A DNA stretch of 22,319 nucleotides. Origin: a virus. Below the pieces are notes generated by a model. It was not told the origin of the DNA. It made no database searches and was given only the letters and a program-made list of their open reading frames with translations. Positions within the stretch are counted from its first letter, which is position 1, and every line of letters begins with the position of its first letter. The position numbers were made by a program, and so were the translations under genes. Location: the IMG/VR virus record IMGVR_UViG_3300040751_002148, positions 1-22,319 of that record, one strand, 5' to 3'. Below are positions 4,453-22,319 of this stretch, piece by piece.

Positions 4453-4460
4453 TATAAATA
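4453..4460 (+). promoter_or_regulatory. T4-type late promoter TATAAATA
   Basis: A perfect TATAAATA box sits in the 38-base gap after the wedge-region gene, 31 bases before the ATG of the 65-aa protein. In T4 this octamer is the whole late promoter core, read by the phage late sigma factor gp55 with gp33/gp45. An AGGA ribosome site follows at 4473-4476. This is the last good late promoter seen until 19387, so it may serve the whole run of genes from 4484 to 19288. Confidence 0.8.
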
Positions 4461-6043: not shown

Positions 6044-9000
6044 ATGGCAAATAAAGTAATTCAAAATACTTTCCTAAACACTTATAGAGATGATTACTCT
6101 GATAGTGCTGGCTATTATCGGGTACTGTTTAATAACGGTAGAGCAGTACAAGCTAGAGAACTTACGCAAATGCAAACTGCCATTCAGCGTGAGATTACCC
6201 GCATGGGCGATAACATTTTCAAAGAAGGTGCTATTGTTCAATCAGGTGGTTTTAGTGCTACTGGTGCAAAATTTGTAAAACTGAATACTACTACAAATAC
6301 ATTACCAGTCGACGGCAACGGTGCTTTAGTAGATTTACAGGGCGTAACCCTTACTAGCTCGAATGGCGCAAAAGCTATTGTTACTAAAGCTATTGAGGAA
6401 GAAGGTTCTGATCCAGCTACCCTTTACGTAGTTTATTCGGAAGGTTCAAATACATTCCAACCAGGAAATACTTTAAGTGGCACAGTCTCTATCGATAGTG
6501 TTAATACACCATTTACGCTTACGGTACAAACTACAAATACTACTTTAAATCCTGCAACTGGTACTGGTCTTTTCTGCACAAATGCAGAAGGCTCATATTA
6601 CGTCACCGGCAGATTTGTATTTGCACCAAAACAAACAATTATTGCTTCTAAGTATACTGACTTAGTTAACGATCAATTAGTATTCAAAGTTACTGAATCG
6701 ATTGTTACTGCGGATTCAGATAATACTTTATACGACAATTCAGGCGCATTACCTAACACGTCTTCACCGGGTGCAGACAGATATAAAATTACTTTAACTC
6801 TTTCGGTATTAAGCCAGTTAGATTCTGCAGATAACTATACTAAAGCTGCTACTATTGTTAATGGTAGATTAACAGATATTAATAAGCCATCGAATGAAGA
6901 AAGTTATAATATTATCCGAGAGCTTATTGCAACTAGAACATCGGAAGAATCCGGTGATTATATTGTAAAGCCGTTTAGAATTCGTTTTAATGATAATGTA
7001 GATGATTCAAGTAAATTAGATATTACTATGGATCCTGGTATTGCATATGTCGACGGTTACAGAGTTTCAAATGAAGTACCGAAAACTATTACAATCGATA
7101 AGCCAAGAACCACTACAACAGTTAATAACGAGGTTACCGCTTTCACATTAGGTAATTACGTTTTAATTGATGGTACTACTAATAAAGGTCTACCAAATGT
7201 AAACACTTTACCTTTAGTAAATCTTTACGATACTACTGGTGGTACTGGTACAGTAATCGGTACTGCTCGTGTAAGAGCAGTCGACGAAGATAACTCAGGT
7301 AGCTTCCGTGTACATTTGTTCCAGATTTCTATGAATTCTGGCACTAACTTTAGAAGTGTTAGAAGTTTAGGCACTGGCACATCAGATTATATGAATCTGG
7401 TATTAGAAGCTGGTCAAGCTGTTTTAAAAGATCCTGCTAATAATTCTTTACTTTTCCCTGTACCTAAGCAAAGACCTCAAAACCTTACTGACGTTTCACT
7501 TACAGTTCAAAGAAGATTCACTGACACTAGCGTAACTGGTGGTAGTACAACCTTTACTTTGTCAGCTGCTGGTGAAACAATTGCAAACGTAAATGACTGG
7601 ATTGTATCAACCCCAGATGGTGCAATTATTACGGGTGCAACAGTTACTGGTGCTGGCGGAAATACTGCTACTGTTAGTAATCTTGGTGCTGCTACTAGTG
7701 TCGAGGTTTTAGGTTACGTCGATAAAGCACAAGGCACTATCCGTAGCAAATCATTACAAACTGACTTTGTTGACACCATTATCCCAGGCGACTGGGACTC
7801 AGATGGCAATGGTACTATTTTTGCAAATCTTTCGAAGCCGGATGTTTATAGCTTTACCTCGGTAACAAAAGGTACTGTTACTGGTACTAATATTAGATCC
7901 AGGTTTATTTTGGATAACGGTCAAAGAGATAACTATTATGGCTTAGGACGTTTAGTTCTTAAACCGAGCCAATCAGTTCCTACTGATAACGTAGTAGTAA
8001 AATACGATTATTTCAGTCATAGTGCTGGTGACTTTTTTGCGGTTAACTCATATTCTACAATTGACTATGAAGATATTCCTTCACATACGTTAGTTAACGG
8101 TCAGACAGTACCGCTTAGATTAATGTTAGACTTTAGACCAGTGGTAAATTCATCTGGTGATTTTGGCTCAGGTGCTATTATTAATGAATTACCGCAACCT
8201 AGCGATACAATTCGTGCGGACATTTCATATTATAATGGTCAAAGGGGTAAAATGTTTATTTCTACTGCTGGGTACATTACCTATAAAGGTGGAGAATTAT
8301 CTTTAAATCCTGAATTCCCGCTTAGCCAATCCGGTATGCTAGAATTATATCGCATTACTTTGAATCCGTATACCTTAAATTACAAAGATGTGGTAGCTAA
8401 GCAAATTGAGCATAAGCACTATACTATGGCAGATATTGGTCTTTTAGAAAAAAGACTAAACGCTTTGGAAGAAGCTACTTCACTAAGCATGTTGGAGTTA
8501 GACACTTCAACTATTGCGGTACTTGACTCTGATGGTAATAACAGAGCTAAATCAGGTTTCTTTGTAGATAACTTTGCAAACCATGCATTTGCTGATGTTA
8601 ACGATCCAAGCTATGCAGCTCAATTAGATCCTGTTGAAAAGTATATTCGTCCGACCAGTTTTATTAACGGCATTAACTTAATGTATGATTCGGATAATCC
8701 GAATAACTCTAATGTTGTTAAAAGAGGTGATAACATTTATCTTGCTTACAGTGAAACCACATTCATTGATCAGGATCAAGCAAGCCAGGTCGAAAACGTG
8801 CTGCCATTCTGGGGTTTAAGATTTGAAGGTCATATCACATTATCGCCAGCAAGTGATAACTGGATCGAAAAAGATTATATTCCAGATGCCGTTGTTAACC
8901 AAACTGTTTTAGATACTTCAGGCGCAACTCTTTACAACGATTGGCAATGGAACTGGGGTGGTACTCCACTTGAAGATTTAGAAGTTGGTAGTGTTACAAA

Positions 9001-11689
9001 CCGAGTTACTTTAAGTAGTAGCACTAGCGTAAGCCAATCAGGTAATACTGTTACTGAAACTAGTACTACCAGAACTGGTCAAAACCAAATTGTAGGTGAA
9101 ACTACTATTAATGAAATCTTAAATGATAGATTGCTTCAAACTGCTTCTATTCCATTTATGAGATCCATTAAAGTTTACTTCAGAGGTCAAGGTTTTAGAC
9201 CTGATACTGAAGTATTCCCATTCTTTGATAAGATCGATGTTTCAGATTGGTGTAGATCTGAAACATTCGTAAGAGTTTCAGATGAGCCTGAAACTTTTGG
9301 TAATGTTCAAAATTCTGCTCTTGGTCACCCAGAAGGTGCATCATCACTTATTGCAGATGCAAATGGTACCGTGGAAGGTTCATTCTTTATTCCATCTACT
9401 TCTAACTTTAGATTTAATACTGGTACAAAAGAATTTATTTTAATTGATGTTACTAATCCAAATGCTGACTTTACCGATGCCACTTCTTACGGAAAACAGA
9501 TCTTTACCTCAGCTGGTATTTTAGAAACTAGACAAAGAGACGTTCTTTCAACTAGGGTATTAGAAGTGTCTAGTACTACTAGAACTACTAGCTCTTCGGT
9601 TTCATATGACGTTTCTCCACCGCCAGCACCAGCAGACACGCGACCTGCACGCGACATAAATGAAATGTCTTGCTTTGTTGCAGGCACTCAAGTAACTATG
9701 GCTGATGGAAGTAAAAAGAATATTGAAGATATTCTAATTGGTGAACAGCTTTTAGGTCAAGATGGGGTAATTAACACTGTTATCGAATACGATCATCCAA
9801 TGCTAAACGGTAGAGATCTAATTGCATTTAACGGCGGTAAACCATTTATGACTCCCGAACACCCACTTTGGACAAAAGATGGTTGGAAGTCTTGGTCAGC
9901 AGAAATGACTCAGTGGCAAAAGCCTGAAATCGCACACCTTATGGTTAACGGCGATTTCCAGGTTGGTGATGAAATCCTAATGGACGACGGAACTTGGTTC
10001 TTAATCGAATCTATTGATGTTCATAAAGGTGAGCCAGAACAGCAAGTATTTAACTTCTGGTTAGATGGTAATAATACCTATTTTGCTGATGGCTTCTTAG
10101 CTCACAACCGCGGTGGACAAGGCAACGGTGATAATAGTGGGGATAACGATCCTTTAGCACAGTCATTTAAAATCTACGAAACAAATGGTGTGTTTGTAAC
10201 AAAGGTAGATCTTTACTTTGCCACAAAAGATCCAGGTACTGCACCAGTTTGGGCACAAATTCGTGCAATGGATAATGGTTATCCGGCGTTCGATGTTATT
10301 GGTAGTTCTACTGTATTTAAATTCCCTTCTGAAATTACTACATCAGAAGATGCAAGTGTAGCTACATCTTTTGAATTTGAAGAGCCTGTGTATCTTTCAC
10401 CGGGTAAAGAATACTGTATCGTTATCGTATCAAACGTTAACACATATAGCGTTTATACTTCTAAAGTTGGTGATTATGTACTGGGTACAACAGATAAAAA
10501 GATTACCAAACAGCCGTTCCTCGGCTCACTATTTAAATCTTCAAACAACAGATCGTGGACAGCTACACAGTGGGAAGATCTTAAGTTTAAGGTTTATACT
10601 GCGCAATTTACTGATACCGGTACAGCAGAATTAACTAATACTAATGTTCCTCTTAAACTTTTAACCGAGGACCCATTATCGGTTGATTCCGGAAATGATG
10701 TTATTACAGTCTTCCATCCAAATCATGGATTTGATAGTGGAGATCAGGTAACTCTATCCGGTGCAGAAGGATTTGCTGGTATTTCGGCTGGTTCAATTAA
10801 TGGTACACGCTCTATTCTACACTTTGATGCAGATGGTTATCAGATCCAAGCTGATGCATCTTCAACATCAGCAGAAATTGGTGGTGGCGCAAATATCCTA
10901 GCTTCACAGAATATCCCTATGGATATGGTAAACATAAATATTTCAACATTATTACCAAATGCCACAGATATTTCGTCTAGCGTTAAAACTACTTCAGCAA
11001 GTTCGATTGCAGGAGATGAAACTGGTTATCAGCTATCGTCAACTTATGAACCTATTCAGCTGAATAAAAATAAATACTTTAATAGCCATAGACAAATTGC
11101 CAATGCGGCAAACGAAACTACTTTCTTATCTGGTAATAAGAGCTTTAACTTAAAGTTAAATTTTGCTACTAACGATAATAAAGTTTCGCCAGTTATTGAT
11201 ATGCAGAGAGCTACAGCAATTGCAGTTTCGAATAAAATCGATAGACCTGCAGCAGTAGACGCAGTAGGATTTAACGTTCCTATTAACTACGTAGCAGAAA
11301 CTAATCCGAAAGGTGGTTCTGCAAGCTCTAAACATATTACTAAATCAGTTACTCTGGCTCAAGATGCTGTTGGCTTAAAAGTAATCCTATCTGCTAACAA
11401 ACCAGCAGCTGCTTCTTGGGATCTTTACTACAGAGTGGTTTCAGGCGATTCAAATATCTCTGACCAAAACTGGACTCTTATCGGTGTTACAGATGAAGGA
11501 TATCCAGCAGGCGGACTAATCAGTGATGAAGATAACCAAGTGTTTAGAGAATACGAATACCTGATTGGCGGTAAAGCTGGAACCTTACCAGCATTCAGCC
11601 AATTCCAAATTAAGATTGTAATGACTTCTTCAAGTCAAGCAAAAGTTCCAACATTTAAAGATCTAAGAGCAATTGCACTGGCGGTATAA
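6044..11689 (+). CDS. Giant baseplate/tail structural protein (DUF4815-type) with internal Hint domain (1881 aa)
   Basis: The N-terminus ('MANKVIQNTFLNTYRDDYS', 'NNGRAVQARELTQMQTAIQR', 'DNIFKEGAIVQSGGF') is the DUF4815-type start of large structural proteins of marine T4-like phages, encoded just after gp8 where T4 has gp9/gp10; a role in the outer baseplate or fibre attachment is inferred. Residues 1 to about 1185 are beta-rich modules. A Ser/Thr-rich stretch and Pro-rich linker ('PPPAPADTRPARD') lead into a Hint domain at 1210-1355, followed by a Gly/Asn/Asp linker and a C-terminal half starting 'DPLAQSF' (about 1367), with 'LSPGKEYCIVIVSN' and 'KQPFLGSLFKSSNNRSWT'. Relatives that I recall run from a proline-rich linker directly into D-P-L-A-Q-S-F, so the Hint segment looks inserted in a linker. 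The gene lies 18 bases after gp8 and overlaps the next gene by one base. Confidence 0.85.
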   Translation: MANKVIQNTFLNTYRDDYSDSAGYYRVLFNNGRAVQARELTQMQTAIQREITRMGDNIFKEGAIVQSGGFSATGAKFVKLNTTTNTLPVDGNGALVDLQGVTLTSSNGAKAIVTKAIEEEGSDPATLYVVYSEGSNTFQPGNTLSGTVSIDSVNTPFTLTVQTTNTTLNPATGTGLFCTNAEGSYYVTGRFVFAPKQTIIASKYTDLVNDQLVFKVTESIVTADSDNTLYDNSGALPNTSSPGADRYKITLTLSVLSQLDSADNYTKAATIVNGRLTDINKPSNEESYNIIRELIATRTSEESGDYIVKPFRIRFNDNVDDSSKLDITMDPGIAYVDGYRVSNEVPKTITIDKPRTTTTVNNEVTAFTLGNYVLIDGTTNKGLPNVNTLPLVNLYDTTGGTGTVIGTARVRAVDEDNSGSFRVHLFQISMNSGTNFRSVRSLGTGTSDYMNLVLEAGQAVLKDPANNSLLFPVPKQRPQNLTDVSLTVQRRFTDTSVTGGSTTFTLSAAGETIANVNDWIVSTPDGAIITGATVTGAGGNTATVSNLGAATSVEVLGYVDKAQGTIRSKSLQTDFVDTIIPGDWDSDGNGTIFANLSKPDVYSFTSVTKGTVTGTNIRSRFILDNGQRDNYYGLGRLVLKPSQSVPTDNVVVKYDYFSHSAGDFFAVNSYSTIDYEDIPSHTLVNGQTVPLRLMLDFRPVVNSSGDFGSGAIINELPQPSDTIRADISYYNGQRGKMFISTAGYITYKGGELSLNPEFPLSQSGMLELYRITLNPYTLNYKDVVAKQIEHKHYTMADIGLLEKRLNALEEATSLSMLELDTSTIAVLDSDGNNRAKSGFFVDNFANHAFADVNDPSYAAQLDPVEKYIRPTSFINGINLMYDSDNPNNSNVVKRGDNIYLAYSETTFIDQDQASQVENVLPFWGLRFEGHITLSPASDNWIEKDYIPDAVVNQTVLDTSGATLYNDWQWNWGGTPLEDLEVGSVTNRVTLSSSTSVSQSGNTVTETSTTRTGQNQIVGETTINEILNDRLLQTASIPFMRSIKVYFRGQGFRPDTEVFPFFDKIDVSDWCRSETFVRVSDEPETFGNVQNSALGHPEGASSLIADANGTVEGSFFIPSTSNFRFNTGTKEFILIDVTNPNADFTDATSYGKQIFTSAGILETRQRDVLSTRVLEVSSTTRTTSSSVSYDVSPPPAPADTRPARDINEMSCFVAGTQVTMADGSKKNIEDILIGEQLLGQDGVINTVIEYDHPMLNGRDLIAFNGGKPFMTPEHPLWTKDGWKSWSAEMTQWQKPEIAHLMVNGDFQVGDEILMDDGTWFLIESIDVHKGEPEQQVFNFWLDGNNTYFADGFLAHNRGGQGNGDNSGDNDPLAQSFKIYETNGVFVTKVDLYFATKDPGTAPVWAQIRAMDNGYPAFDVIGSSTVFKFPSEITTSEDASVATSFEFEEPVYLSPGKEYCIVIVSNVNTYSVYTSKVGDYVLGTTDKKITKQPFLGSLFKSSNNRSWTATQWEDLKFKVYTAQFTDTGTAELTNTNVPLKLLTEDPLSVDSGNDVITVFHPNHGFDSGDQVTLSGAEGFAGISAGSINGTRSILHFDADGYQIQADASSTSAEIGGGANILASQNIPMDMVNINISTLLPNATDISSSVKTTSASSIAGDETGYQLSSTYEPIQLNKNKYFNSHRQIANAANETTFLSGNKSFNLKLNFATNDNKVSPVIDMQRATAIAVSNKIDRPAAVDAVGFNVPINYVAETNPKGGSASSKHITKSVTLAQDAVGLKVILSANKPAAASWDLYYRVVSGDSNISDQNWTLIGVTDEGYPAGGLISDEDNQVFREYEYLIGGKAGTLPAFSQFQIKIVMTSSSQAKVPTFKDLRAIALAV
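9671..10108 (+). other. Hint (intein-like/BIL) domain coding segment within the giant tail protein
   Basis: This segment encodes residues 1210-1355, 146 aa, with the core features of a self-processing Hint domain. It opens with a cysteine in 'CFVAGTQVTMADG' followed by 'KKNIEDILIGE' (block A). A block-B T-x-x-H appears in 'FMTPEHPLW'. The C-terminal end 'NTYFADGFLAHN' carries the H-N pair (block G). No homing endonuclease is present; the length is that of a mini-intein. The residue after the final Asn is Arg, not Cys/Ser/Thr as in true inteins, which points to a bacterial intein-like (BIL) type Hint domain that may cleave instead of splicing efficiently. Whether it is active cannot be told from sequence. 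Confidence 0.85.
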
Positions 11690-11892
11690 TGGAAATAGTA
11701 AAAGCAGAGAATGCACCGGGATTTGGTAGAGATACTAAAACCGGTGCTATTATCAACATAAATACTTCTGAAATAGAAGCTGCTCGACAAGCCAAAGCAA
11801 ATAAAAGAAAAAAGCAAGAGGAGTTCGAGCAGTTGAAAAAAGACGTTGATGATATCAAAGCAATGCTAACTCAGATAGTAGAGAAACTATAA
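11689..11892 (+). CDS. Small coiled-coil protein of the tail fibre region (67 aa)
   Basis: A 67-residue charged protein. The first 20 residues contain 'APGFGRDTKTGAIININ'; residues about 27-67 ('SEIEAARQAKANKRKKQEEF' onwards) form a strong predicted helix with heptad-like Leu/Ile/Val spacing ('FEQLKKDVDDIKAML', 'IVEKL'), so a trimeric or dimeric coiled coil is likely. It starts within the stop of the giant structural gene (TAATGG) and ends in the same way against the next fibre gene, so all three are probably co-translated. Small proteins of this look are common next to tail fibre genes in marine T4-like phages; the exact role (linker, chaperone or anchor) is unknown. Confidence 0.75.
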   Translation: MEIVKAENAPGFGRDTKTGAIININTSEIEAARQAKANKRKKQEEFEQLKKDVDDIKAMLTQIVEKL

Positions 11893-12437
11893 TGGCCGTA
11901 ACAACACTTTTTATATCCGATAATTTCGGTACATTAGTAGATAAGTTTAATACCCTTTCGGGTGTAGCAGGAGATCTTGCAAATTTAAATACTACCGCTA
12001 CCTCGGATTTGGTTGCAGCAATTAATTCAGTTTATGGATTAGTTGATGAAGTTTCCGATTTCAGATCTAAAATTAGCGTAACTGATGCAGGTGGTGACGG
12101 TTCTTTAAGTTACAATTCTACGACCGGCGTTATTACATACACCGGACCAAGCGCTAGTGAGGTTCGCGCGCACTTCAGCGCGGGCGAAGGTATAGTTCTT
12201 AACAACGGGCAGATTTCAGTAGAAGACGCTACTAGTACCAATAAAGGTATTGCCAGTTTTACAACCGAAGATTTTGTTGTAATCGATGGGGCAGTATACA
12301 TTAAAGCGTTTGGCATAACTTCAGGTCAAATTGCAAATGACGCTGTAAGTAGGTCTAAATTAAAAGATGAAGTAGAATTGGTAATATATAATAATGCTGG
12401 AACGGCTTTAAAAACGTTATATGGCGCAGGTAGTTAA
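11892..12437 (+). CDS. Tail fibre-like protein (181 aa)
   Basis: This modular fibre protein has an N-terminal helical region ('NFGTLVDKFNTLSGVAGDLA', 'DLVAAINSVYGLVDEVSDF', residues about 10-58) resembling a fibre oligomerisation stalk. Next come 'DGSLSYNSTTGVITYTGPSA' (about 69-88) and 'SEVRAHFSAGEGI', a repeat unit used many times in long fibres of marine T4-like phages. Then comes 'NKGIASFTTEDFVVIDGAVY' (about 117-136), a unit that recurs in the 610-aa fibre at 20010. The protein has one copy of each unit, so it is short for a full fibre and may be a minimal or proximal fibre segment. It overlaps the preceding gene by one base and is 2 bases from the next. Confidence 0.8.
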   Translation: MAVTTLFISDNFGTLVDKFNTLSGVAGDLANLNTTATSDLVAAINSVYGLVDEVSDFRSKISVTDAGGDGSLSYNSTTGVITYTGPSASEVRAHFSAGEGIVLNNGQISVEDATSTNKGIASFTTEDFVVIDGAVYIKAFGITSGQIANDAVSRSKLKDEVELVIYNNAGTALKTLYGAGS

Positions 12438-12439
12438 TA

Positions 12440-13903
12440 ATGGCAGTTAGAATTCCTTTAAAGGTAGATAACGGCGATCTTAGGCAATTGACTGGCGCCG
12501 AAATCACCGCAATTCAAAACGAAGCAGCCAGACTTTATGGATTAAATCCTTCCGTTACTTTATCCGTAGTTACTTCAGGGGGTAGTTTAGGTAATATTGC
12601 AGATACCAGACTCCAAGCTGGTGCAATGTCACAGTCCAATACTGCTACTCCCCCTATAACTACTACTGAAGACGTTTCTACTATTACAGTAAATCACTCG
12701 AAGATCAATCAAGCTAGAGATACCAGTGAATCCCCTTGGAGTAATGGTACGTATTCATACCCTCTTTATTATGATAACGGCGATTTGAGGGAAATGACCG
12801 AAACCGATTTTGCAGATACTTTTATTAAGCCTGCAATTAATATTCTAACCAACACTACTGCAAACCCCGGTACTTATTTTGTGTCTACGACAGCTGGTGG
12901 TATTTCAGGTGCAACCTTATTATCAGCTACCCCTATTTTCACTGATACGAGATACAATCTTCCTACACTTTCAACTACAGCATTCGTTTCATATGAAGTT
13001 ATTGGTGGCGGTGGTGAAGGCGGCGGCGGTTACCTAGGTGGTACTGGTGCATCAGGTGGCACATCAAGTATAACTGGTTCATCTGGTTCTGGATTTACAA
13101 CAGCTACATCTGCTGGCGGCCCCGGTGCTGGCGGTAGTGGTGGTACATCACAAGCTGGTTTTGCAAGTTACTATGGACCTGGTGGCGCTGGTGGTATTAA
13201 CTCCGACAGTAATAGACAAACACCAGGATATCCAGCACCGAGTACGTCATATGGTGCTGGCGGTGGCGGCGGCGGCGCTTGGCCATTCTCGGCTAATAAC
13301 GGTGGTGCTGGTGGTGGCGCAGCAACTCGTCAAACGGGCACACAATCAGTAAACGTTGGTTCCTCATTAACTGTTGTTATTGGCTCTGGTGGTTCTGCAA
13401 TTAGCGGCGGTGGTAATGGTGCTGGCGGTTATGCTAAAGTCACAGTAGACGGTACTGTGTACGAGTACACTATCCCAGGAACATATACTATTAACGTTAC
13501 AAGTGCAAGTATCGATTTACCTTTCCCCGAGGATGATCCTGTTACTATTACTAATTACTATTTGTATAAACAAAATGGTACGCTTGATGAATTCGAGCAT
13601 CCTTTACCAGTGACTTATACTAAAACCGGTATAAATTTAGCAGCTATTCCAGATGCAGATTTTTCAAACGCACTTGAAACTATGGTTAGATATTACGCTG
13701 CAGAAGTTACGGGTTCTAGAATTACCTATACTATTAATGGTACTGGCACTACCCAAGGTACTGCAATGACTGATACTAAATTAAACAGTTCGCAGTACTT
13801 AACGGATTACATCCCAGCTTCCGATTTATATCAAGCACAAGAAATTCCTGCTGGTACGGCATCTACTATATCAACTTATGCACTAAAAATTAGTCAAACG
13901 TAA
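12440..13903 (+). CDS. Glycine-rich tail adhesin-like protein (487 aa)
   Basis: The N-terminal third contains a duplicated unit: 'DNGDLRQLTGAEI' (about 10-22) and 'DNGDLREMTETDF' (about 111-123), probably two copies of a small attachment module. Residues about 189-333 are an extreme Gly-rich domain ('GGGGEGGGGYLGG', 'GPGGAGGINSD', 'GAGGGGGGAWPF', 'GSGGSAISGGGNGAGGYAKV'). Its opening strand 'FVSYEVIGGGG' and closing strands 'VNVGSSLTVVIGSGG' and 'YAKVTVDG' match the layout of Gly-rich domains in phage tail proteins, and poly-Gly stretches of this kind form polyglycine-II helix sandwiches in T-even gp38 adhesins. The C-terminal part (about 355-487) is beta-rich with 'YYLYKQNGTLDEF'. A receptor-binding role is likely but inferred. 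It sits among fibre genes directly upstream of the modification cassette. Confidence 0.75.
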   Translation: MAVRIPLKVDNGDLRQLTGAEITAIQNEAARLYGLNPSVTLSVVTSGGSLGNIADTRLQAGAMSQSNTATPPITTTEDVSTITVNHSKINQARDTSESPWSNGTYSYPLYYDNGDLREMTETDFADTFIKPAINILTNTTANPGTYFVSTTAGGISGATLLSATPIFTDTRYNLPTLSTTAFVSYEVIGGGGEGGGGYLGGTGASGGTSSITGSSGSGFTTATSAGGPGAGGSGGTSQAGFASYYGPGGAGGINSDSNRQTPGYPAPSTSYGAGGGGGGAWPFSANNGGAGGGAATRQTGTQSVNVGSSLTVVIGSGGSAISGGGNGAGGYAKVTVDGTVYEYTIPGTYTINVTSASIDLPFPEDDPVTITNYYLYKQNGTLDEFEHPLPVTYTKTGINLAAIPDADFSNALETMVRYYAAEVTGSRITYTINGTGTTQGTAMTDTKLNSSQYLTDYIPASDLYQAQEIPAGTASTISTYALKISQT

Positions 13904-13912
13904 GGATTTATA

Positions 13913-14386
13913 ATGGCTATCTTTTCTAATAAAATTATATCAGCTAAATTTATTAATAATCTTAATAGTATAGTAGAAGTACTTTATACTGAAGGCGAAA
14001 ATATTATACCTTTTATTATTGAAGTTGATTATACGAACGAAGACTTTAAAAGCCTTTTGGAAGAATATCCATTAGAAAAAATTGAATTAGAAACTCAAGA
14101 AATTCGAAAAAAAGAAGTCGAAACTTTTAATTCTCTCGTTGAGGCTAGAGTAAATCAAAAATTACAAAATGGTGAAAACGAAAAGCAGTTTACCACAAAA
14201 GATATGTTTTCTTTTATGGAACAAAATGCAACAGATACAGATTTTATTTTCGAATTTAAAGTATCTGTATTAGAAGACGAACAAGTTGCAGCTATTAAAG
14301 ATAAAACTTTAAAAGCAAAAATTCGTAAAAGCAAAAACTTTTATGAACTATTATCGATCTACGGGGATATTAAATCCAAAGGATAA
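13913..14386 (+). CDS. Hypothetical protein, possible fibre chaperone or assembly protein (157 aa)
   Basis: I do not recognise a named family. The N-terminal 50 residues are probably a small beta domain ('ISAKFINNLNSIVEVLYTEG', 'NIIPFIIEVDYTNEDFKSLL'). The middle is helical and charged ('EKIELETQEIRKKEVETFNS', then 'LVEARVNQKLQ'), and the C-terminus is lysine-rich ('KAKIRKSKNFYELLSIYGD'). It lies 9 bases after the glycine-rich adhesin with an AAGGA ribosome site, and 3 bases before the first cassette gene. Small proteins encoded directly after a fibre or adhesin gene are often assembly chaperones, which is the most economical guess; there is no motif proof. Confidence 0.6.
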   Translation: MAIFSNKIISAKFINNLNSIVEVLYTEGENIIPFIIEVDYTNEDFKSLLEEYPLEKIELETQEIRKKEVETFNSLVEARVNQKLQNGENEKQFTTKDMFSFMEQNATDTDFIFEFKVSVLEDEQVAAIKDKTLKAKIRKSKNFYELLSIYGDIKSKG

Positions 14387-14389
14387 ATT

Positions 14390-15016
14390 ATGTACAATGT
14401 GATATGTGTCAAATTTGGCACCAAATATAATTCAGAATTTGTTAATAAGTTATATAAAGATCTTAAAGGTGTAACAGAACAGGAATTTAATTTTTTCTGT
14501 TACACCGATAATCCCAATGGTATAGATTCAGATATTGAAATTATACCGGAAATGCGCTCTCCTACATTAAAAGGTGTTTGGAATAAGTTACGCTTATTCG
14601 ACGAAGAAATGTATCTGGAAGGTAAATGTTTCTTTTTTGATTTAGATATTAAAATTTTAAAAGATCCTTTTATTGAAGTAGATTGGAATAAGCTAACTGT
14701 TATCGATTCACATTGGAAAGATCCTAATATTATTCGGCCAACTAATTATGACGTAACAATGAATAGTTCCGTTATGGCATGGGATGCAAATAATCCTAAC
14801 ATCCAAAAAATTTGGGAACACTTTAATACTGGTTATAGGGATTATTATCTTCGCAAATACGTAGGCATAGATAGATTTATTACTCACGAAAAGATTGATT
14901 ACGATACGTTCCCGCACGAGTACATTCAATCCAAAAAATATCAAGAGAATGTAGACTATGAAGCAAGTGTTTTGACATTTGAGGAGATTGAGGTTGGACT
15001 CGAAGATCTTAGATAG
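14390..15016 (+). CDS. Glycosyltransferase-like protein, first copy (208 aa)
   Basis: A GT-A-fold type nucleotide-sugar transferase is suggested. The N-terminus is a strand-loop 'MYNVICVKFGTKYNSEFVNK', followed by 'FNFFCYTDNPNGI' (33-45), 'WNKLRLF' (64-70), and a metal-binding D-x-D in 'CFFFDLDIKIL' (80-90; D84 and D86). Downstream 'MNSSVMAWD' (about 124-132) is where related GT8-like proteins carry their N-S-G-V-M acceptor-side motif. It shares the order V-x-C-V-(K/R)-x-G-x-K-Y, W-N-K-L-x-x-F and D-x-D with the protein at 16480, so the two look paralogous. An AAAGGA site (14378-14383) precedes the ATG. The sugar and acceptor are unknown. Confidence 0.75.
   Translation: MYNVICVKFGTKYNSEFVNKLYKDLKGVTEQEFNFFCYTDNPNGIDSDIEIIPEMRSPTLKGVWNKLRLFDEEMYLEGKCFFFDLDIKILKDPFIEVDWNKLTVIDSHWKDPNIIRPTNYDVTMNSSVMAWDANNPNIQKIWEHFNTGYRDYYLRKYVGIDRFITHEKIDYDTFPHEYIQSKKYQENVDYEASVLTFEEIEVGLEDLR
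14981..14986 (+). promoter_or_regulatory. Ribosome binding site GAGGAG fixing a TTG start at 14994
   Basis: GAGGAG lies inside the end of the upstream glycosyltransferase gene and is 7 bases before an in-frame TTG at 14994. The longest frame would begin at TTG 14979, but that start would place this strong ribosome site inside the coding region, so 14994 is the better start for the methyltransferase-like gene. Confidence 0.6.
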
Positions 15017-15614
15017 AGCATTAAAAGCCATCGAAGAAGTTTATAATGAATCAATGTACGGTAAAGACGATCTTTATCGCATGAAAGATATTATACATTC
15101 GGTAGATGAAAACCATTGGAAAAGTAAAGAATGGTTAGCCGAAAAGATTAAAAAAATTTACGGTCCTTATGATGATGGACATACGTATATTGTTGGCGGT
15201 TGGTATGGTATGATGGCATACCAAATAAGAAAGCAATGGCCAAATATTAGTATGAATATCACTTCGGCTGATATGGATCCGGAAGCAAAAGAGATTGCTT
15301 GGCTAATATTTCACGGTTACGATTTACAGTTTGAAACTGTTGATATAAAAGATAAAACTGATCTTTCAGAGTATTCTATTATTATTAACACAAGCTGTGA
15401 ACATATGGAACAAAAAGATCTTCTTAATATTATTAAAAATAAAGATAAAAATACATGGGTGTGTTTTCAGACAAACGATTATGAAGAATTAAATTCACAC
15501 ACGAATTGTTTTAAATCTGCCGAAGAGTTTGCTGATAGTTTGCCTATTCGTAAGGCATATGTGGGAACATTAAACCTAAATGATTTTAATCGATTTATGG
15601 TTATAGGTAGATGA
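14994..15614 (+). CDS. Class I SAM-dependent methyltransferase-like protein (206 aa)
   Basis: With the TTG start at 14994 the protein begins 'MDSKILDRALKAIEEVY'. A helix, then 'TYIVGGWYGMMAYQI' (about 64-78) supplies the glycine-rich SAM-binding loop (G-G-W-Y-G). 'MNITSADMDPEA' (about 87-98) gives the strand ending in an acidic residue that usually binds the SAM ribose, and 'SIIINTSCEHM' stands at the motif IV position. Later 'WVCFQTNDYEE' and the C-terminal 'NRFMVIGR' complete the alternating strand pattern of a Rossmann-type methyltransferase. No DNA-methylase N/D-P-P-Y/F motif is seen, so a small-molecule, sugar or protein target is more likely. The gene overlaps its neighbours on both sides (23 bases upstream, ATGA downstream), placing it firmly in the cassette. 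Confidence 0.7.
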   Translation: MDSKILDRALKAIEEVYNESMYGKDDLYRMKDIIHSVDENHWKSKEWLAEKIKKIYGPYDDGHTYIVGGWYGMMAYQIRKQWPNISMNITSADMDPEAKEIAWLIFHGYDLQFETVDIKDKTDLSEYSIIINTSCEHMEQKDLLNIIKNKDKNTWVCFQTNDYEELNSHTNCFKSAEEFADSLPIRKAYVGTLNLNDFNRFMVIGR

Positions 15615-16483
15615 GAAAAATAGTATTCAGCATTTTTATCGATATACCAGAGGATAAGTTAGATAATCCTGGTTGGTTCGAAAATGGTGTGCAAGTTAAA
15701 ACAGATAAAAGTCTAAAAACAAAGCAAGCACTATTAGCAAACTATTCAAATATTATTGCTAACCATAAAGAATATGCTGATACGATTGGCGTTGATTATA
15801 GATTATATGAATATGATGATCTTTATAAAAGATTCAGTACTCTATTTCAATTACAATATACAGAAATTTCTGAATATGATATAGTTAATTTTTATAAACA
15901 TCATATAATGTACGAATTAACAAAAGAATATGATGAAATTTGTTATCTAGATTTTGATGTTGTGGTAAACACAAAAGAATCTATATTTGAAGCTCATGAC
16001 ATCTATAATAAATTCGGTTGTGCCCATTCAAATAAATTAGCTGAATGGGGTAAAAAAGTATCACCTAAAAAATATAATACTTGTATTCGTAATCCAGCTA
16101 CGAAATACTGGAATACACATGCAATGTTAGATGATCAGGGCTTTGAACCAGATAATGACGTATTTAATACAGGTATTATGGTTGCATCTGCGAAGATTAT
16201 AAAGCAACTAGATTACTTTAAAGATTTTAAAGACCATATTAATATAATGACTCGATTAAAGAATGATGAAGATTCATTATACCCGTATAATATCCGTCGT
16301 GTTTTTGGTTATGATAATGAAACCTTATTTTCTTATTTTATTCAGTCAAAAAATATACCAGTTGAATATTTAAATGGACCTTGGCATCGAATTGTTGATG
16401 AAAGATATGAAAATATGAATCAGGTTCCTCCTAGTAATCTATACCATTTCATTAATAAAAAAATGGAATGGGTATTTGAATGA
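15611..16483 (+). CDS. GT8-like glycosyltransferase (290 aa)
   Basis: This protein has the core pattern of GT-A retaining glycosyltransferases of the GT8 type. 'YDEICYLDFDVVVNT' (107-121) gives the D-x-D metal site (D114, D116). 'NDVFNTGIMVAS' (182-193) corresponds to the F-N-(S/T)-G-(V/I)-M motif. The C-terminal 'GPWHRIVDE' and 'LYHFINKK' supply the late histidines often found in this family. The N-terminal 'KIVFSIFIDIP' is the first strand. It begins within the stop of the methyltransferase-like gene (ATGA) and ends overlapping the next gene in the same way, so the group is translated as a unit. Donor and acceptor cannot be read from sequence. Confidence 0.75.
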   Translation: MRKIVFSIFIDIPEDKLDNPGWFENGVQVKTDKSLKTKQALLANYSNIIANHKEYADTIGVDYRLYEYDDLYKRFSTLFQLQYTEISEYDIVNFYKHHIMYELTKEYDEICYLDFDVVVNTKESIFEAHDIYNKFGCAHSNKLAEWGKKVSPKKYNTCIRNPATKYWNTHAMLDDQGFEPDNDVFNTGIMVASAKIIKQLDYFKDFKDHINIMTRLKNDEDSLYPYNIRRVFGYDNETLFSYFIQSKNIPVEYLNGPWHRIVDERYENMNQVPPSNLYHFINKKMEWVFE

Positions 16484-17166
16484 AAGTTTTTTGTGTAAGA
16501 ATCGGAAACAAATATGGTCCAGAATATGAGGATTATATTAATAGTAAATTAGAAGGGCATGACGTTTATTGGATTCGTGAACCATTTCATCCGTCTATTC
16601 CGTTGCAATGGAACAAATTACAAGTGTTTGGAATGGATATTAATGAACCAGTTATTGTTATGGATATTGATAAGCTTCTTATACATAATTATGAGGAAGT
16701 ACTAAATTATCCGTGTAAAAAAGGTCAATTTGTTTCAACGCCTTATTGGTGGAAACAGTCTACTATGCCATATAAAAGTAGTGGTGGTTTCTATAAGTTT
16801 TGGCCATCTACGACTAGACACATTTATGAAAAATATATGGGCGATATTCCATATTATACAAACTATTATATTAAAGCTGGATTAACAACTGGGCCAGTAA
16901 ATGGCGAGTTTATGTTTGTTCAAGATAGCTTATATGGTATGGACTTTAAAATAATGCCGGATGCTTGGTTTACTCGATGGGTAAGCGATAATAAAGTTAC
17001 TACTAACACCATAATACTAGAAAGTAAATATTGTGAAGTTACCGGCAATGATTATCTTTACGACGGTAAAGACTTTCATCCTGATGTTAAAATGGTACAC
17101 TTTACCCACAGTTTAAATAAGCCACATGAATGGAAAGACTATGGTAAGTTTAATACGAAATTATAA
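16480..17166 (+). CDS. Glycosyltransferase-like protein, second copy (228 aa)
   Basis: 'MKVFCVRIGNKYGPEYEDYI' opens the protein and parallels the start of the protein at 14390. 'LQWNKLQVF' (42-50) and 'PVIVMDIDKLLI' (57-68), with the D-x-D at 62-64, follow at matching spacing. Unlike its paralogue it has an aromatic-rich middle ('TPYWWKQSTMPYKSSGGFYK', about 87-106) and 'TTGPVNGEFMFVQDS', which could shape a different acceptor site. The C-terminal 'VKMVHFTHSLNKPHEWKDYG' contains a histidine cluster similar to those that close the active site in GT-A enzymes. It starts in ATGA overlap with the GT8-like gene and its 3' end overlaps the radical SAM gene by 26 bases. Confidence 0.7.
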   Translation: MKVFCVRIGNKYGPEYEDYINSKLEGHDVYWIREPFHPSIPLQWNKLQVFGMDINEPVIVMDIDKLLIHNYEEVLNYPCKKGQFVSTPYWWKQSTMPYKSSGGFYKFWPSTTRHIYEKYMGDIPYYTNYYIKAGLTTGPVNGEFMFVQDSLYGMDFKIMPDAWFTRWVSDNKVTTNTIILESKYCEVTGNDYLYDGKDFHPDVKMVHFTHSLNKPHEWKDYGKFNTKL

Positions 17167-17911
17167 CGAACTATACAATCTAAGTAAACTTAGAATGTGG
17201 CTAGACCTTTCTACATATTGTAATGCAAAATGTCCACAGTGTCATAGGACGAATGCTAATGGTCTTGGCAAAGTAGATTGGTTGCCATTAGTACAATGGT
17301 CCTACGATCAGTTCGTCAAAATGTTTCCGAAAAAACATTTGGATAAAATAGATCACTTTGATATTTGCGGTACTTGGGGTGATCCCATTATGAATAAAGA
17401 TATATTCAAAATTGTAGAATATATTATGCAAAATACCGAAAGCACTACAGTACTAATAAACACAAACGGCAGTTTTCGTAATGAAAATTGGTGGTGGGAG
17501 CTTGGCTTATTAGGTAAAGAAAGAATAAAAGTTATGTGGGCTGTTGAAGGTGTTACACAGGAACAGCATTCTTTATATAGACAAAGTACCAATTTAGAAA
17601 CAGTTTTAAGTAATATGGAATCATTTAGTTTGGCTGGTGGTATTAGTGAAATCTTTACCGTTGTATTTAAACATAATGAAAATCATTTATTGGAAATAGC
17701 AAAATTAACTAAACAGCATGGTGCTAAATGTATTATGTTTATCCAATCAAATAGATTTTATAATAATATGAAGTTCGATTTTATTAATGAGGCAGGTGAA
17801 AGTAAAGTATTAGAAAGAGCCGAAAAAGAAAATTCTGCGTTTTACGGTGCAACCTTTAATTTACATGATTCTGAACATTTAGAAAGAATTAAAAATGAAT
17901 CCATTAAATGA
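17141..17911 (+). CDS. Radical SAM protein, core domain only (256 aa)
   Basis: The protein has the radical SAM cluster C-x3-C-x2-C in 'STYCNAKCPQCHRTNANG' (Cys 27, 31 and 34 from the start at 17141). It begins with the typical first strand 'LRMWLDLS', followed by 'DHFDICGTWGDPIMNKD', the equivalent of the G-G-E-P SAM-binding motif (here G-T-W-G-D-P), and 'TTVLINTNGSF' for the next strand. Radical SAM enzymes cleave SAM with a 4Fe-4S cluster to start radical chemistry. The length (256 aa) covers the partial TIM barrel but no C-terminal accessory domain; that lies on the next ORF in another frame. ATG 17141 is chosen because GGAAAG stands at 17132-17137; the frame also has an ATG at 17126. Confidence 0.85.
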   Translation: MVSLIRNYNELYNLSKLRMWLDLSTYCNAKCPQCHRTNANGLGKVDWLPLVQWSYDQFVKMFPKKHLDKIDHFDICGTWGDPIMNKDIFKIVEYIMQNTESTTVLINTNGSFRNENWWWELGLLGKERIKVMWAVEGVTQEQHSLYRQSTNLETVLSNMESFSLAGGISEIFTVVFKHNENHLLEIAKLTKQHGAKCIMFIQSNRFYNNMKFDFINEAGESKVLERAEKENSAFYGATFNLHDSEHLERIKNESIK

Positions 17912-18290
17912 AAATAAAATGAATATTCAATGTCAATGGATGCAAAGTAAAAGACTATTAATTAATCCAGACGGTCAGGTATTGCCTTGTTGTTATTTTG
18001 CTAATGTCATTTATATGTTAACGAAAATTGACGAAGAGGATATGAAACCCAAAGCAAGAGAAGATCGCGGGGTCGAAGATCAAATTATGGATAAAGGTTT
18101 AGTTGCTTTAGAAACAGAAGCAGAGCCTTTATTTGCCGAATATATTCGGGATAAAGAAAAGTATAATATTAACAATACTGATTTAGAAGAAATAGTTAAT
18201 TCGGATTGGTTTACGAAAGATCTTCCCGAATCTTGGAATGATTCATCAAGAGTCACAAGGCAATGTAAAAAGTATTGTACTAAAAAATGA
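17895..18290 (+). CDS. SPASM-like Cys-rich accessory domain protein, probably the other half of the radical SAM protein (131 aa)
   Basis: The sequence 'NIQCQWMQSKRLLINPDGQV' followed by 'LPCCYFANV' is the standard opening of a SPASM/twitch accessory-cluster domain (C-x-n-DG-x-v-x-P-CC), with Cys 13, 32 and 33. It closes with 'RQCKKYCTKK' (Cys 124 and 128), giving five cysteines able to hold an extra 4Fe-4S cluster. In most relatives this domain is fused to the C-terminus of the radical SAM core; here it is encoded in a +1 frame, overlapping the core gene by 17 bases. It may be a separate subunit, a frameshift product, or one gene split by an indel in the A5 run at 17891-17895. The start codon has no strong ribosome site. 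Confidence 0.7.
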   Translation: MNPLNENKMNIQCQWMQSKRLLINPDGQVLPCCYFANVIYMLTKIDEEDMKPKAREDRGVEDQIMDKGLVALETEAEPLFAEYIRDKEKYNINNTDLEEIVNSDWFTKDLPESWNDSSRVTRQCKKYCTKK

Positions 18291-19288
18291 TATGTAAAGC
18301 ACCAGTTAATAATATGTATTTTACTGTATTTGGTACAGTAGCTCCATGCTGGTTAACTGTGGGTGCAATTGATCGGTGGTCTCCTGAAAGGTCTATTCGA
18401 GATATTTGGTTCGGCGAACATTATCAACGTATCAGAGATAATATAACAAATAATATTTTTGTCGGTAAATGTGCTGAATGCAAAAAAGATTTAGATAATA
18501 ACGTTTGGCCATTAGCAAAAGCATATGAAGAATTTCCGGTAAGGGAATATCCTAGTCTTATCGAATTAGAGTTAAGCAATCAATGCAATTTAGAATGCAT
18601 TATGTGTTCCGGCGTATTAAGTTCTGGTATTCGAAAAAATCGGGATAAACTACCTCCTCTTCCTCAAATCTACGATGAATCCTTTCGGGAACAACTAAAG
18701 GAATTTATCCCGCATTTACAAGAGTTGCGCATTAATGGTGGTGAACCATTTGCACAAAAAATTGTGCTTGATATTTGTGAAGATGTTGCACAATTAAATC
18801 CGGGGTTAAAAGTAAACATTGCTACAAACGGTACTGTGTATAATAAGCGCGTTCAAAAGATCTTAGATATGTGCAATATTCATATTAACATTTCTATTGA
18901 CAGTTTAATACCTGAACGTTATGCCGAAATCCGTATCAATGGTGATCTTGAAGTCTTATTAAATAACTTTAAAATCTTTAATAAATATTGTAAAGACGGT
19001 AATAAAGATCTTTGTATTATGGTAAATCCCATGAGACAGAATTGGGATGAAATGGTAGATTTTGTAAAATGGACACATGAAAATCAGGTAAAGCTTTGGT
19101 ATAATACCATCCGTTATCCAGAACATTGCGCCATATGGAATCTTTCAACAGAAGAGTTGAAAACAATATACGAAACATTAAAAAACAAACTTGACACTGA
19201 GATTAATAAAAGATATTCTAACTACGAGAAAATCGATCATTTGGTTAATCATCAAATACGTACGTGGTTGCTTGATAGTTATATGTGA
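18287..19288 (+). CDS. Radical SAM protein with N-terminal SPASM/twitch-like domain (333 aa)
   Basis: The domain order is inverted compared with classic SPASM enzymes. A Cys-rich accessory region comes first: Cys3 in 'MICKAPVNNMYF', Cys21 in 'GTVAPCWLT', and Cys62/Cys65 in 'VGKCAECKKD'; it also has 'SIRDIWFGEHYQRIRDNI', the usual SPASM helix. The radical SAM core follows: 'IELELSNQCNLECIMCSG' with Cys 100, 104 and 107, the G-G-E-P motif in 'ELRINGGEPFAQK', 'VNIATNGTVYN' and 'INISIDSLIPERYAEIR'. Such N-terminal-twitch radical SAM proteins are seen in phages, with unknown substrates. The start overlaps the preceding stop (ATGA), so it is coupled to the SPASM-like ORF. It closes the cassette; a 131-base gap with a late promoter follows. 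Confidence 0.85.
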   Translation: MICKAPVNNMYFTVFGTVAPCWLTVGAIDRWSPERSIRDIWFGEHYQRIRDNITNNIFVGKCAECKKDLDNNVWPLAKAYEEFPVREYPSLIELELSNQCNLECIMCSGVLSSGIRKNRDKLPPLPQIYDESFREQLKEFIPHLQELRINGGEPFAQKIVLDICEDVAQLNPGLKVNIATNGTVYNKRVQKILDMCNIHINISIDSLIPERYAEIRINGDLEVLLNNFKIFNKYCKDGNKDLCIMVNPMRQNWDEMVDFVKWTHENQVKLWYNTIRYPEHCAIWNLSTEELKTIYETLKNKLDTEINKRYSNYEKIDHLVNHQIRTWLLDSYM

Positions 19289-19386: not shown

Positions 19387-19394
19387 TATAAATA
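19387..19394 (+). promoter_or_regulatory. T4-type late promoter TATAAATA
   Basis: A perfect TATAAATA box lies in the 131-base gap (19289-19419) between the modification cassette and the next fibre gene set, 33 bases before the ATG at 19420. A strong GAGGA ribosome site follows (19411-19415). The rest of the gap is AT-rich and holds a weak sigma70-like TATAAT at 19306-19311 without a convincing -35 box; I see no clear terminator hairpin in it. Confidence 0.8.
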
Positions 19395-19419: not shown

Positions 19420-19770
19420 ATGGCCCAATACGAAGAACTCACAATCGATCAAGGTTCTGATGTTTCGATCGAGTTGCATCTAGTTAACCCTGATGGATCT
19501 GTAAAAGATTTGGATGGTTATACTGTCACCGCTAAAATGAAGCGCACGTATAACAGCGATAGCGATAACACTACTTCTTTTGTTACTACTATCCCAGATG
19601 CAGGCGCAGGATTAACCGTTTTATCCCTTACGAACGACGTCACTGATAATCTCCGTCCTGGGAGATACGTTTATGATGTGGAAATCTCTTTTCAAGACAG
19701 TAATCTAAATACCATAATTGAAAGAGTCATGGAGGGTAACATTGAAGTTACTCGTTCGGTTACGAGGTAA
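19420..19770 (+). CDS. Small Ig-like/beta-sandwich phage structural protein (116 aa)
   Basis: The sequence 'YEELTIDQGSDVSIELHLVN', then 'DGSVKDLDGYTVTAKMKRTY' (about 26-45), 'GLTVLSLTNDVTDNLRPGRY' and 'VYDVEISF' is a small beta-sandwich commonly encoded near fibres and baseplates of marine T4-like phages. It resembles the N-terminal domain of baseplate upper proteins (BppU-type: 'QG.D...l.......G...dltG.t..a...'). It is the first gene after a perfect late promoter, and the next gene begins 3 bases after its stop. A role as fibre-baseplate adaptor fits but is inferred. Confidence 0.75.
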   Translation: MAQYEELTIDQGSDVSIELHLVNPDGSVKDLDGYTVTAKMKRTYNSDSDNTTSFVTTIPDAGAGLTVLSLTNDVTDNLRPGRYVYDVEISFQDSNLNTIIERVMEGNIEVTRSVTR

Positions 19771-21913: not shown

Positions 21914-22319
21914 ATGTCAACAACGAATATCAAGCTCAAAAGAAGTGCTGTATCCGGTAATGCACCGACGACAGAACAACTTGCTCTCGGTGAACTGGCT
22001 ATTAACACCTACGATGGTGATCTTTTTGTAAAAAGAAACCAAGCTGGTGCCGAAGAAATTCTTAAATTTGCAGCTCATGTACCCGTAGAAAATGTTCTCT
22101 ACGTACAAAAAGCTGGTCATGATACAAAAAACGATGGCAGCTCCTGGTCAAAAGCATTCCTTACAGTTGAAGCAGCCGTTGCAGAAGCCACTACAAGAAA
22201 TGGCGATCTTACAGTAATTCACATTGGCCCAGGGATATACACTACCCAAGGTCATATCGATATGCCAGATAACTGCATTATTCACTCTGATTATCGTGCA
22301 GCAATTTTTAGACCGGAGG
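21914..22319 (+). CDS. Tail fibre/tailspike protein, N-terminal part, with beta-helix-like region (3' partial)
   Basis: This frame runs off the right edge. The first 45 residues ('MSTTNIKLKRSAVSGNAPTT', 'EQLALGELAINTYDGDLFVK') are the IKLKRS anchor of phage tropism-determinant and fibre proteins, a close relative of the N-terminus of the 610-aa fibre. From about residue 60, 'NVLYVQKAGHDTKNDGSSWS', 'KAFLTVEAAVAEA', 'DLTVIHIGPGIYTTQGHIDM' and 'PDNCIIHSDYRAAIFRP' form the opening of a right-handed parallel beta-helix of the pectate-lyase kind, typical of fibres and tailspikes that bind or cut surface polysaccharide. A GAGGA ribosome site (21903-21907) stands 6 bases before the ATG. The catalytic part, if any, is outside the window. 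Confidence 0.8.
   Translation, partial: MSTTNIKLKRSAVSGNAPTTEQLALGELAINTYDGDLFVKRNQAGAEEILKFAAHVPVENVLYVQKAGHDTKNDGSSWSKAFLTVEAAVAEATTRNGDLTVIHIGPGIYTTQGHIDMPDNCIIHSDYRAAIFRPE

Follow-up and report, generated by a model that had tools for sequence, protein, structure and literature searches.

The host recognition cluster of pelagimyophages is a hypervariable stretch to the right of VrlC, among tail fibre genes, and gene cassettes there that include GT8 and radical SAM members were described in 2020 (Zaragoza-Solas 2020, PMC7029224). That paper reads the glycosyltransferases, from their GT8 annotation, as host O-chain modifiers or host-wall genes. In Campylobacter phages CP220 and CPt10, several radical SAM genes stand with genes for two proteins of GT-A fold, not far from the gene for a baseplate lysozyme (PMC2853527). 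In mycobacteriophages, phage glycosyltransferases have been tied to glycans on virion proteins, with capsid and tail-tube targets (Freeman 2023, as cited in PMC12619734).

The window, by which we mean the whole 22,319-nucleotide stretch analysed, belongs to a T4-like (Kyanoviridae-type) marine phage whose gp6 is nearest, among named phages, to those of C48C1 (42%) and HTVC008M (35%). A variable island (11892-19288) lies to the right of VrlC, with fibre genes rightward, and its site is that of the pelagimyophage host recognition cluster. The pelagimyophage cluster is bordered on the right by the neck gene gp14, whereas the window record ends at 22319 inside fibre genes. Within the island, seven ORFs (14390-19288) run without gaps on the + strand, with overlaps of 4-41 nt between neighbours. 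They encode three DxD glycosyltransferase-like proteins, one methyltransferase-fold protein, a twitch/SPASM-first radical SAM enzyme and, from two genes, a split radical SAM/SPASM enzyme (Table 1). VrlC and adhesin genes flank this cassette on one side and a fibre-assembly gene on the other. The initial annotation had described the same seven overlapping ORFs and enzyme types between fibre-type gene sets, an observation that coordinates, motifs and Pfam, PHROG and profile matches confirm. GC content is 30-34% in the cassette and 32-43% in the tail genes, and the cassette has a strongly positive GC skew. The same gene order was found again in independent contigs (L003/L014, L004, L007 and L015) and the cassette genes are under purifying selection (pN/pS 0.10-0.33), which argues against a chance assemblage.

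Table 1. Features of the island and its landmarks in the window.
Feature	Coordinates	Strand	Evidence
VrlC / gp7-position baseplate protein, 1881 aa; left landmark of host recognition cluster	6044..11689	+	PHROG 358, PHROG 877; DUF4815 6e-49; Hint PF05203 4.4e-11
fib1, small fibre-like protein, usually directly upstream of Adh	11892..12437	+	weak tail-fibre PHROG matches; upstream of Adh repeatedly
Adh, conserved tail protein with glycine-rich insert; proposed substrate is the core, not the insert	12440..13903	+	alignment A1
p157 (c8 family), small partner nearly always adjoining Adh; chaperone-like role a guess	13913..14386	+	profile labels; model
GT_A, DxD GT-A-type glycosyltransferase-like	14390..15016	+	PHROG 1962 8e-8; profile to glycogenin 0.0017
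MT, class I SAM-fold methyltransferase-like; TTG start, alternative start 14994	14979..15614	+	A6 motif GGWYG; spermidine synthase fold 2.9e-5
GT8-family glycosyltransferase	15611..16483	+	PF01501 28.2 bits, cut-off 24.3
GT_B, DxD glycosyltransferase-like, GT_A-family homologue	16480..17166	+	alignment A8
rSAM1, radical SAM core half of split SPASM enzyme	17126..17911	+	PF04055 4.5e-7; fused to SPASM in relatives
SPASM half of rSAM1 enzyme	17895..18290	+	PF13186 3.1e-7; split kept in many contigs, overlaps vary
rSAM2, N-terminal twitch/SPASM then radical SAM core	18287..19288	+	PF13186 residues 3-66, PF04055 residues 95-262
TATAAATA, T4-type late promoter box upstream of fibre-assembly gene	19387..19394	+	motif match; box number not above shuffles
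Lfib, fibre-assembly-type protein, right landmark	19420..19770	+	PHROG 1084 3.6e-23; PHROG 3304 L-shaped tail fibre assembly 1.4e-13

The island therefore cannot be called without precedent, as it had been at first, because GT8 and radical SAM genes in a host recognition cluster were reported in 2020 (PMC7029224). Pelagibacter phage Mosig EXVC030M (MT647606), the only named phage in which both Adh and GT8 found matches at the thresholds applied, has MT, GT8, radical SAM and c8 genes beside Adh and VrlC in an island at 61-73 kb. The Mosig island differs in being larger and on the opposite strand and in carrying nitroreductase-like, ArnB-like aminotransferase, carbamoyltransferase and epimerase genes. 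The CP220/CPt10 cluster is a further precedent, although it includes an amidinotransferase gene, has no Adh or c8 labelled, and its radical SAM similarity amounts to ~32% identity over 66% of rSAM1. The Adh/c8 pairing, the methyltransferase-like protein and the split SPASM enzyme are not reported in the sections of PMC7029224 with which we compared the window.

All three transferases carry the D-x-D site noted initially (FFDLDI in GT_A, YLDFDVV in GT8 and VMDIDKL in GT_B), which is conserved in alignments A8 and A9 and invariant in A9 for the GT8 protein, itself above the PF01501 cut-off (1.8e-6). GT_A and GT_B gave no PF01501 match in the Pfam search. GT_A is called glycosyltransferase-like from its PHROG match, its DxD motif and a weak match to glycogenin; GT_B, which matched nothing in the profile libraries searched, is putatively called a glycosyltransferase by its homology to GT_A and its DxD motif. 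MT has no Pfam match above cut-off, and in profile searches it matches class I SAM-fold proteins in the PDB, namely spermidine synthase and methyltransferase-fold chains.

The C-x3-C-x2-C clusters are likewise present in two proteins, as CNAKCPQC in rSAM1 and CNLECIMC in rSAM2; as candidate for a GGE-type SAM-binding motif, rSAM1 has GTWGDP (G and D invariant in A2) and rSAM2 has GGEP. The PF04055 match of rSAM1 and the adjoining PF13186 match are both above cut-off, and the cysteines are invariant in A2. The "radical SAM core" and "SPASM-like protein" of the initial annotation are, from alignment A2, halves of one enzyme that is fused in relatives. Many contigs show the split, in two frames and with the overlap ranging from 1 to 52 nt; we therefore rejected both sequencing error and one lone frameshift signal as its source. 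Among solved relatives the one that matches rSAM1 best, at E 7e-4, is the sugar-nucleoside enzyme BlsE, and a peptide substrate for rSAM1 is therefore not favoured. rSAM2 combines PF04055 (2.5e-12) with an N-terminal PF13186 match (2.9e-6), and its match to N_Twi_rSAM NF033640 (4e-39, positions 4-350 of 398) scores 134.8 bits, below the cut-off of 170; its predicted architecture is twitch-first, not formal membership of NF033640.

What is new here is that the enzyme set tracks a pair of tail proteins, Adh and the small c8/p157. Among 35 loci that span VrlC to the fibre-assembly gene Lfib and were picked without reference to the cassette, 31 had neither Adh/c8 nor the cassette, four had both and none had only one (Fisher 1.9e-5, the contigs not being fully independent). 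Adh/c8 was present in 49/49 GT8-anchored loci of at least 14 kb. Conversely, 68 of 69 Adh-anchored loci with a 3 kb flank contained a core enzyme, and the 54 with a longer view contained GT (54), MT (50) and rSAM (43). In whole records, MT and c8 occurred together in 12/29; c8 occurred without MT in two, each with GTs beside c8, and MT without c8 in a single record, which is cut inside MT. Adh, c8 and the enzymes also change site together (L123/L124; L210), and in L055-L057 and L059 the block GT_A-MT-rSAM1-SPASM sits between Adh and c8. Co-occurrence of the set and its linkage to fibre genes, which the initial annotation had put forward as its test, thus hold across many contigs and lineages.

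The linkage has limits. An MT-anchored scan showed no Adh/c8 in 53 of 80 loci, so that MT by itself is not confined to phages with Adh/c8; in those Adh/c8-less contigs examined further, the cluster lies beside or between fibre or baseplate genes, and MT/rSAM/GT clusters in distant marine lineages again adjoin fibre genes. Some radical SAM genes of the same families lie at a distance from fibres, close to replication genes and with carbamoyltransferase and SGNH genes (L011-L020), and relatives' islands gain nucleotide-sugar (DegT, epimerase), carbamoyltransferase and fatty-acid desaturase genes. Homologues unlinked or grouped with nucleotide-sugar genes had been named as contrary to modification of a virion protein, and these observations count partly against it.

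We consider that the island most likely modifies the Adh-type adhesin, with a probability of roughly one half. This reading draws on the profile identities, the co-occurrence and co-movement with Adh/c8, the adjacency to fibres, the purifying selection and the absence of GT8 and MT from the sampled genomes of one bacterial class outside phage-like contigs. The pairing of enzymes with a tail-tip protein suggests that the phage may chemically decorate its own host-binding fibres. We infer the timing, substrate, order of steps and purpose as follows. The island would be expressed late, together with the tail genes, and c8/p157 would help to fold or assemble the adhesin. In order, the split SPASM and twitch-first radical SAM enzymes would perform C-H chemistry on an adhesin side chain or on the sugar, the three GT-A-type transferases would build a short glycan, and the methyltransferase-like protein would cap it. 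The adhesin, or a fibre put together with it, would thereby acquire an unusual modification, either a methylated glycan or an altered side chain, that tunes adhesion or shields the fibre. More tentatively, marine T4-like phages might use the pathway to give their receptor-binding adhesin a glycan or side-chain modification specific to the lineage, with c8 as a dedicated partner, and so vary host binding atop sequence variation.

The initial annotation had favoured the glycine-rich adhesin as substrate. The Adh core is ~309 aa in relatives and the glycine-rich insert occurs only in this window's Adh (A1 and protein lengths), with the cassette conserved where Adh has no insert; we therefore rejected the insert as the conserved target. 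No database name was obtained for Adh, and a model of an Adh relative (pLDDT 95) gave no PDB match with Z of at least 2 among Foldseek candidates and no viral match at E 1e-3, which we do not read as a new fold. The c8/p157 model (pLDDT 93) has weak fold matches, the top one being "tail assembly chaperone" (E 0.08).

Against modification of the adhesin we count BlsE as the best rSAM1 relative, the fibre-distant radical SAM modules, the MT loci without Adh/c8 and a negative late-promoter test. The three matches to the late-promoter box in the window are all directly upstream of tail genes; however, shuffles give as many, and upstream of divergent (opposite-strand) cassettes the box occurs in 3/24, no better than permuted motifs, so we do not use it as evidence.

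The usual view of phage tail adhesins is that they are plain proteins and that their sequence determines host range. Should chemical modification of these adhesins occur in marine T4-like phages, sequence-based prediction of host range would overlook one level of variation, and virion maturation would be a new role for radical SAM chemistry. The phages concerned are relatives of those that infect the most abundant bacteria of the ocean.

The main rival, which we regard as possible but clearly less probable than adhesin modification, is that the enzymes remodel LPS or another host surface glycan during infection, with the effect that neither the infected cell nor its debris is bound any longer by other phages or by the phage's own progeny. 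An adhesin matched with enzymes that alter its own receptor would show the same linkage, and the nucleotide-sugar, carbamoyltransferase and desaturase genes of relatives suit glycan or host-envelope chemistry. The GT8 family takes in LPS-core enzymes, and the GT8 annotation is what the published pelagimyophage reading was argued from (PMC7029224). Against this, enzyme genes lie between those of Adh and its partner c8 and change site along with both. Gtr O-antigen conversion operons, in which phage glycosyltransferases alter the host surface, need a membrane flippase and a polytopic transferase. In the proteins of the window cassette, by contrast, no membrane span was predicted by hydropathy. 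No GtrA-type flippase or polytopic GtrC-type gene was seen, only 8/668 island genes having at least two predicted spans, seven of the eight being desaturase-like. In 385 genomes of one bacterial class, the GT8 and MT families turned up solely in phage-like contigs belonging to a single MAG of that class. The fused-SPASM profile found only four loci in bacterial genomes, all in phage-like contigs. Should the enzymes act on a host glycan after all, their strict pairing with one adhesin type would still give a directly testable pair, the adhesin and the surface it meets.

We consider unlikely a scenario in which the interval from VrlC to the fibre genes does no more than gather metabolic cargo, the linkage with Adh/c8 is hitch-hiking on one recombining block and the enzymes act on unrelated small molecules. 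The content, order and strand of relatives' islands do vary greatly, with desaturase-like, Asp/Arg-hydroxylase-like, nitroreductase-like and other genes joining; the host recognition cluster is known as hypervariable (PMC7029224), and the cassette's base composition and skew are unlike its flanks. Yet the same families recur with Adh/c8 in either orientation and at different genomic sites, and they are absent from all 31 spanning loci without Adh/c8. Still less probable is a RiPP-like or small-molecule pathway in which a peptide or cofactor is matured by the SPASM and twitch enzymes. Their profiles resemble peptide maturases weakly, as one of many SPASM families; all NCBIfam matches fall far below cut-off, the gap-free cassette leaves no room for a precursor gene among + strand ORFs of 60 aa and up, and the radical SAM genes are less constant in these islands than the GTs and MT. 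Hypermodification of phage DNA, of which phage glycosyltransferases are capable (PMC12619734), is very improbable for a set that sits with tail genes rather than nucleotide metabolism and tracks a tail protein pair.

On inspection, conserved H and R residues make the X218 protein of the C48C1-type island look like a 2OG oxygenase, an assignment that no library confirmed and that we set aside. In phage C48C1 itself, the stretch is reduced to the adhesin, c8, one GT, one further protein and Lfib.

The window's 22,319 bases are the complete IMG/VR record, and the seven overlapping ORFs reported by the initial annotation were found exactly as described, between Adh/p157 (a conserved tail adhesin and its small partner) and a fibre-assembly gene, Lfib. 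The gp6 baseplate protein is nearest to those of phage C48C1 (42%), Pelagibacter phage HTVC008M (35%) and Methylophilales phage Melnitz (33%), all Kyanoviridae. GC content in the cassette is ~30-34%, and its GC skew is strongly positive (0.13-0.21); elsewhere in the window GC content is 32-43% and the skew mostly weaker. The VrlC-type protein contains a Hint (intein/hedgehog-type) domain (PF05203, 4.4e-11) and is encoded by two ORFs in several relatives (L025, L028, L032, L034, L036). Three boxes of the T4-type late promoter, TATAAATA, lie at 4453, 19387 and 21843, all on the + strand and directly upstream of tail genes.

Coordinates of features in the window
Feature	Coordinates	Position
gp25 baseplate gene	1245-1691	
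gp6 baseplate gene	1693-3528	
gp8-type baseplate gene	4694-6025	
VrlC-type protein	6044-11689	between baseplate genes and fibre genes
Hint domain of VrlC-type protein	~9668-10100	
Adh/p157	12440-14386	left of seven-ORF cassette
Adh	12440-13903	
p157	13913-14386	
Fibre-assembly gene (Lfib)	19420-19770	right of seven-ORF cassette

Among the transferases, the GT8 protein scores above the Pfam GT8 cut-off, GT_A matches PHROG 1962 (glycosyltransferase), and GT_B has a DxD motif and is homologous to the GT_A group; the best match of the GT_A/GT_B profile is glycogenin, which is weak (0.0017). The methyltransferase-like protein (MT) has no library match above cut-off, and a profile of 11 MT sequences matches spermidine synthase and methyltransferase-fold chains (2.9e-5). 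Judged from sequence, rSAM1 and SPASM are the halves of one enzyme: in loci L025-L038 one chain of 326-381 aa holds both, with CNAKCPQC and the SPASM cysteines invariant. We regard the split as real, as many contigs have it and their overlaps and frames differ. In rSAM2 an N-terminal SPASM/twitch-type domain precedes the radical SAM core, and its likeness to NF033640 falls below that model's cut-off.

Thirty-six loci came from scans with rSAM2 and rSAM1, and 80 more from one with Adh; genes were labelled by profiles built in the present analysis. In 69 of the Adh loci the sequence extends 3 kb or more past Adh; 68 of these contain a core enzyme and 67 contain c8 (the family of p157). In the 54 Adh loci with a longer view, a glycosyltransferase gene is always present, MT occurs in 50 and a radical SAM gene in 43, and 41 loci combine all three; optional additions are carbamoyltransferase (20), epimerase (16), SGNH (16) and DegT (11) genes. 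Because Adh had originally been chosen via cassette loci, a further scan used Lfib as its anchor and HTVC008M as lead sequence. Thirty-one of the 35 loci spanning VrlC/w67 to Lfib lack both Adh/c8 and the cassette, and four have both (Fisher 1.9e-5; partial redundancy of the contigs, and their ranking by query similarity, make this value indicative only). L194, one of those 31, has Adh, c8 and the full cluster at another place on its contig, and in three truncated loci enzymes are present and Adh/c8 is not visible. With GT8 as anchor, every one of the 49 loci that reach 14 kb has Adh/c8. A functional tie best explains why the enzymes accompany Adh and c8 and not simply the site.

On two phage-like contigs (L123 and L124; FZLS01000007 and FZLS01000023), an Adh-c8-rSAM1-(GT_A)-MT-GT8 block occupies a different genomic site; these contigs, filed under a Rhodobacteraceae MAG, resemble T4-like phage DNA and are likely viral contigs binned into it. 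L210 has Adh-c8 downstream of its fibre genes, accompanied by a long sugar-type cluster. GT_A-MT-rSAM1-SPASM sits between Adh and c8 in L055-L057 and L059, as does an epimerase in many loci, and the set is found on either strand. Phage C48C1 (L207 1012-13030) encodes a homologous adhesin of >3000 aa, c8, one DxD glycosyltransferase, one further protein and Lfib, in that order; the further protein, annotated as hypothetical, looks 2OG-oxygenase-like.

Some loci are counter-examples. Away from fibres, in L011-L013 and L016-L020, radical SAM genes of the cassette families accompany carbamoyltransferase and SGNH genes in the vicinity of replication genes, and in L023 they lie near nucleotide-sugar-type genes; at the start of the L016 contig, however, GT8, GT_B and radical SAM genes precede fibre-like genes (L372). 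Separate radical SAM, carbamoyltransferase and SGNH modules stand beside replication/metabolic genes of T4-like phages (L012 7256-11199, L017 9959-14428, L020). When MT is the anchor, Adh/c8 is missing from 53 of 80 loci. On MT-reached contigs of 185, 102 and 65 kb and on a 363-kb contig, MT/glycosyltransferase/radical SAM clusters adjoin fibre genes or sit between VrlC and fibre genes.

The substrate of the enzymes would be Adh, or a fibre that is assembled together with Adh, a reading to which we assign a probability of about one half. Modification of the receptor bound by Adh would create the same functional tie and is less favoured, because the enzymes interleave with Adh and c8, because the window cassette runs on from the tail genes and the first terminator-like site comes no earlier than 18752, because the islands are almost without membrane proteins (8/668), unlike Gtr O-antigen conversion operons, and because a search of 385 genomes of the Rhodobacteraceae MAG's class found the GT8 and MT families in that MAG's phage-like contigs only. 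Sugar-nucleotide and desaturase genes in relatives counsel caution, as do the nearest solved relative of rSAM1, the sugar-nucleoside enzyme BlsE (7e-4), and the negative outcome of the late-promoter test.

If Adh is the target, its conserved core is a better candidate than the glycine-rich stretch, since that insert (roughly residues 175-365; 26 Gly in 60 aa) is limited to the window's Adh and is missing from all other homologues seen, cassette-bearing relatives included. The core is modelled confidently (pLDDT 95, pTM 0.88) and matches no solved chain at Z >=2. The c8 model (pLDDT 93) comprises a beta meander, a long helix and a helical end; its best viral match, a weak one (E 0.08), is a tail assembly chaperone, and at a guess c8 may be a chaperone.

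The initial annotation knew of no described phage system with this set. One study (PMC7029224) places the host recognition cluster of pelagimyophages between VrlC and gp14, records GT8 genes and radical SAM gene cassettes within it, and proposes a change of the host O-chain that would counter co-infection. In Campylobacter phages CP220/CPt10 there are 11-12 radical SAM genes (PMC2853527), one cluster including two GT-A-fold proteins, and virion glycosylation is reported in mycobacteriophages (cited in PMC12619734). Given these precedents, the set is a variant of described systems; within the papers compared, no description was found of the strict Adh/c8 pairing or of the split SPASM enzyme.

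Against L014, pN/pS is 0.10-0.33 for the cassette genes and higher for Adh (0.40), p157 (0.53) and Lfib (0.43), all rough values with synonymous sites near saturation. The fastest-changing gene of the block is p157, with 34-44% identity to L014 versus 86% for rSAM2. Other large marine viruses (L236, L285, L373 and L378, on 185-kb and 65-kb contigs; L242, 363 kb) have long clusters beside repeated fibre genes, with many radical SAM/SPASM genes, glycosyltransferases, UDP-sugar dehydrogenase and MT, and a similar gene of 116-119 aa lies between their fibres and glycosyltransferases.
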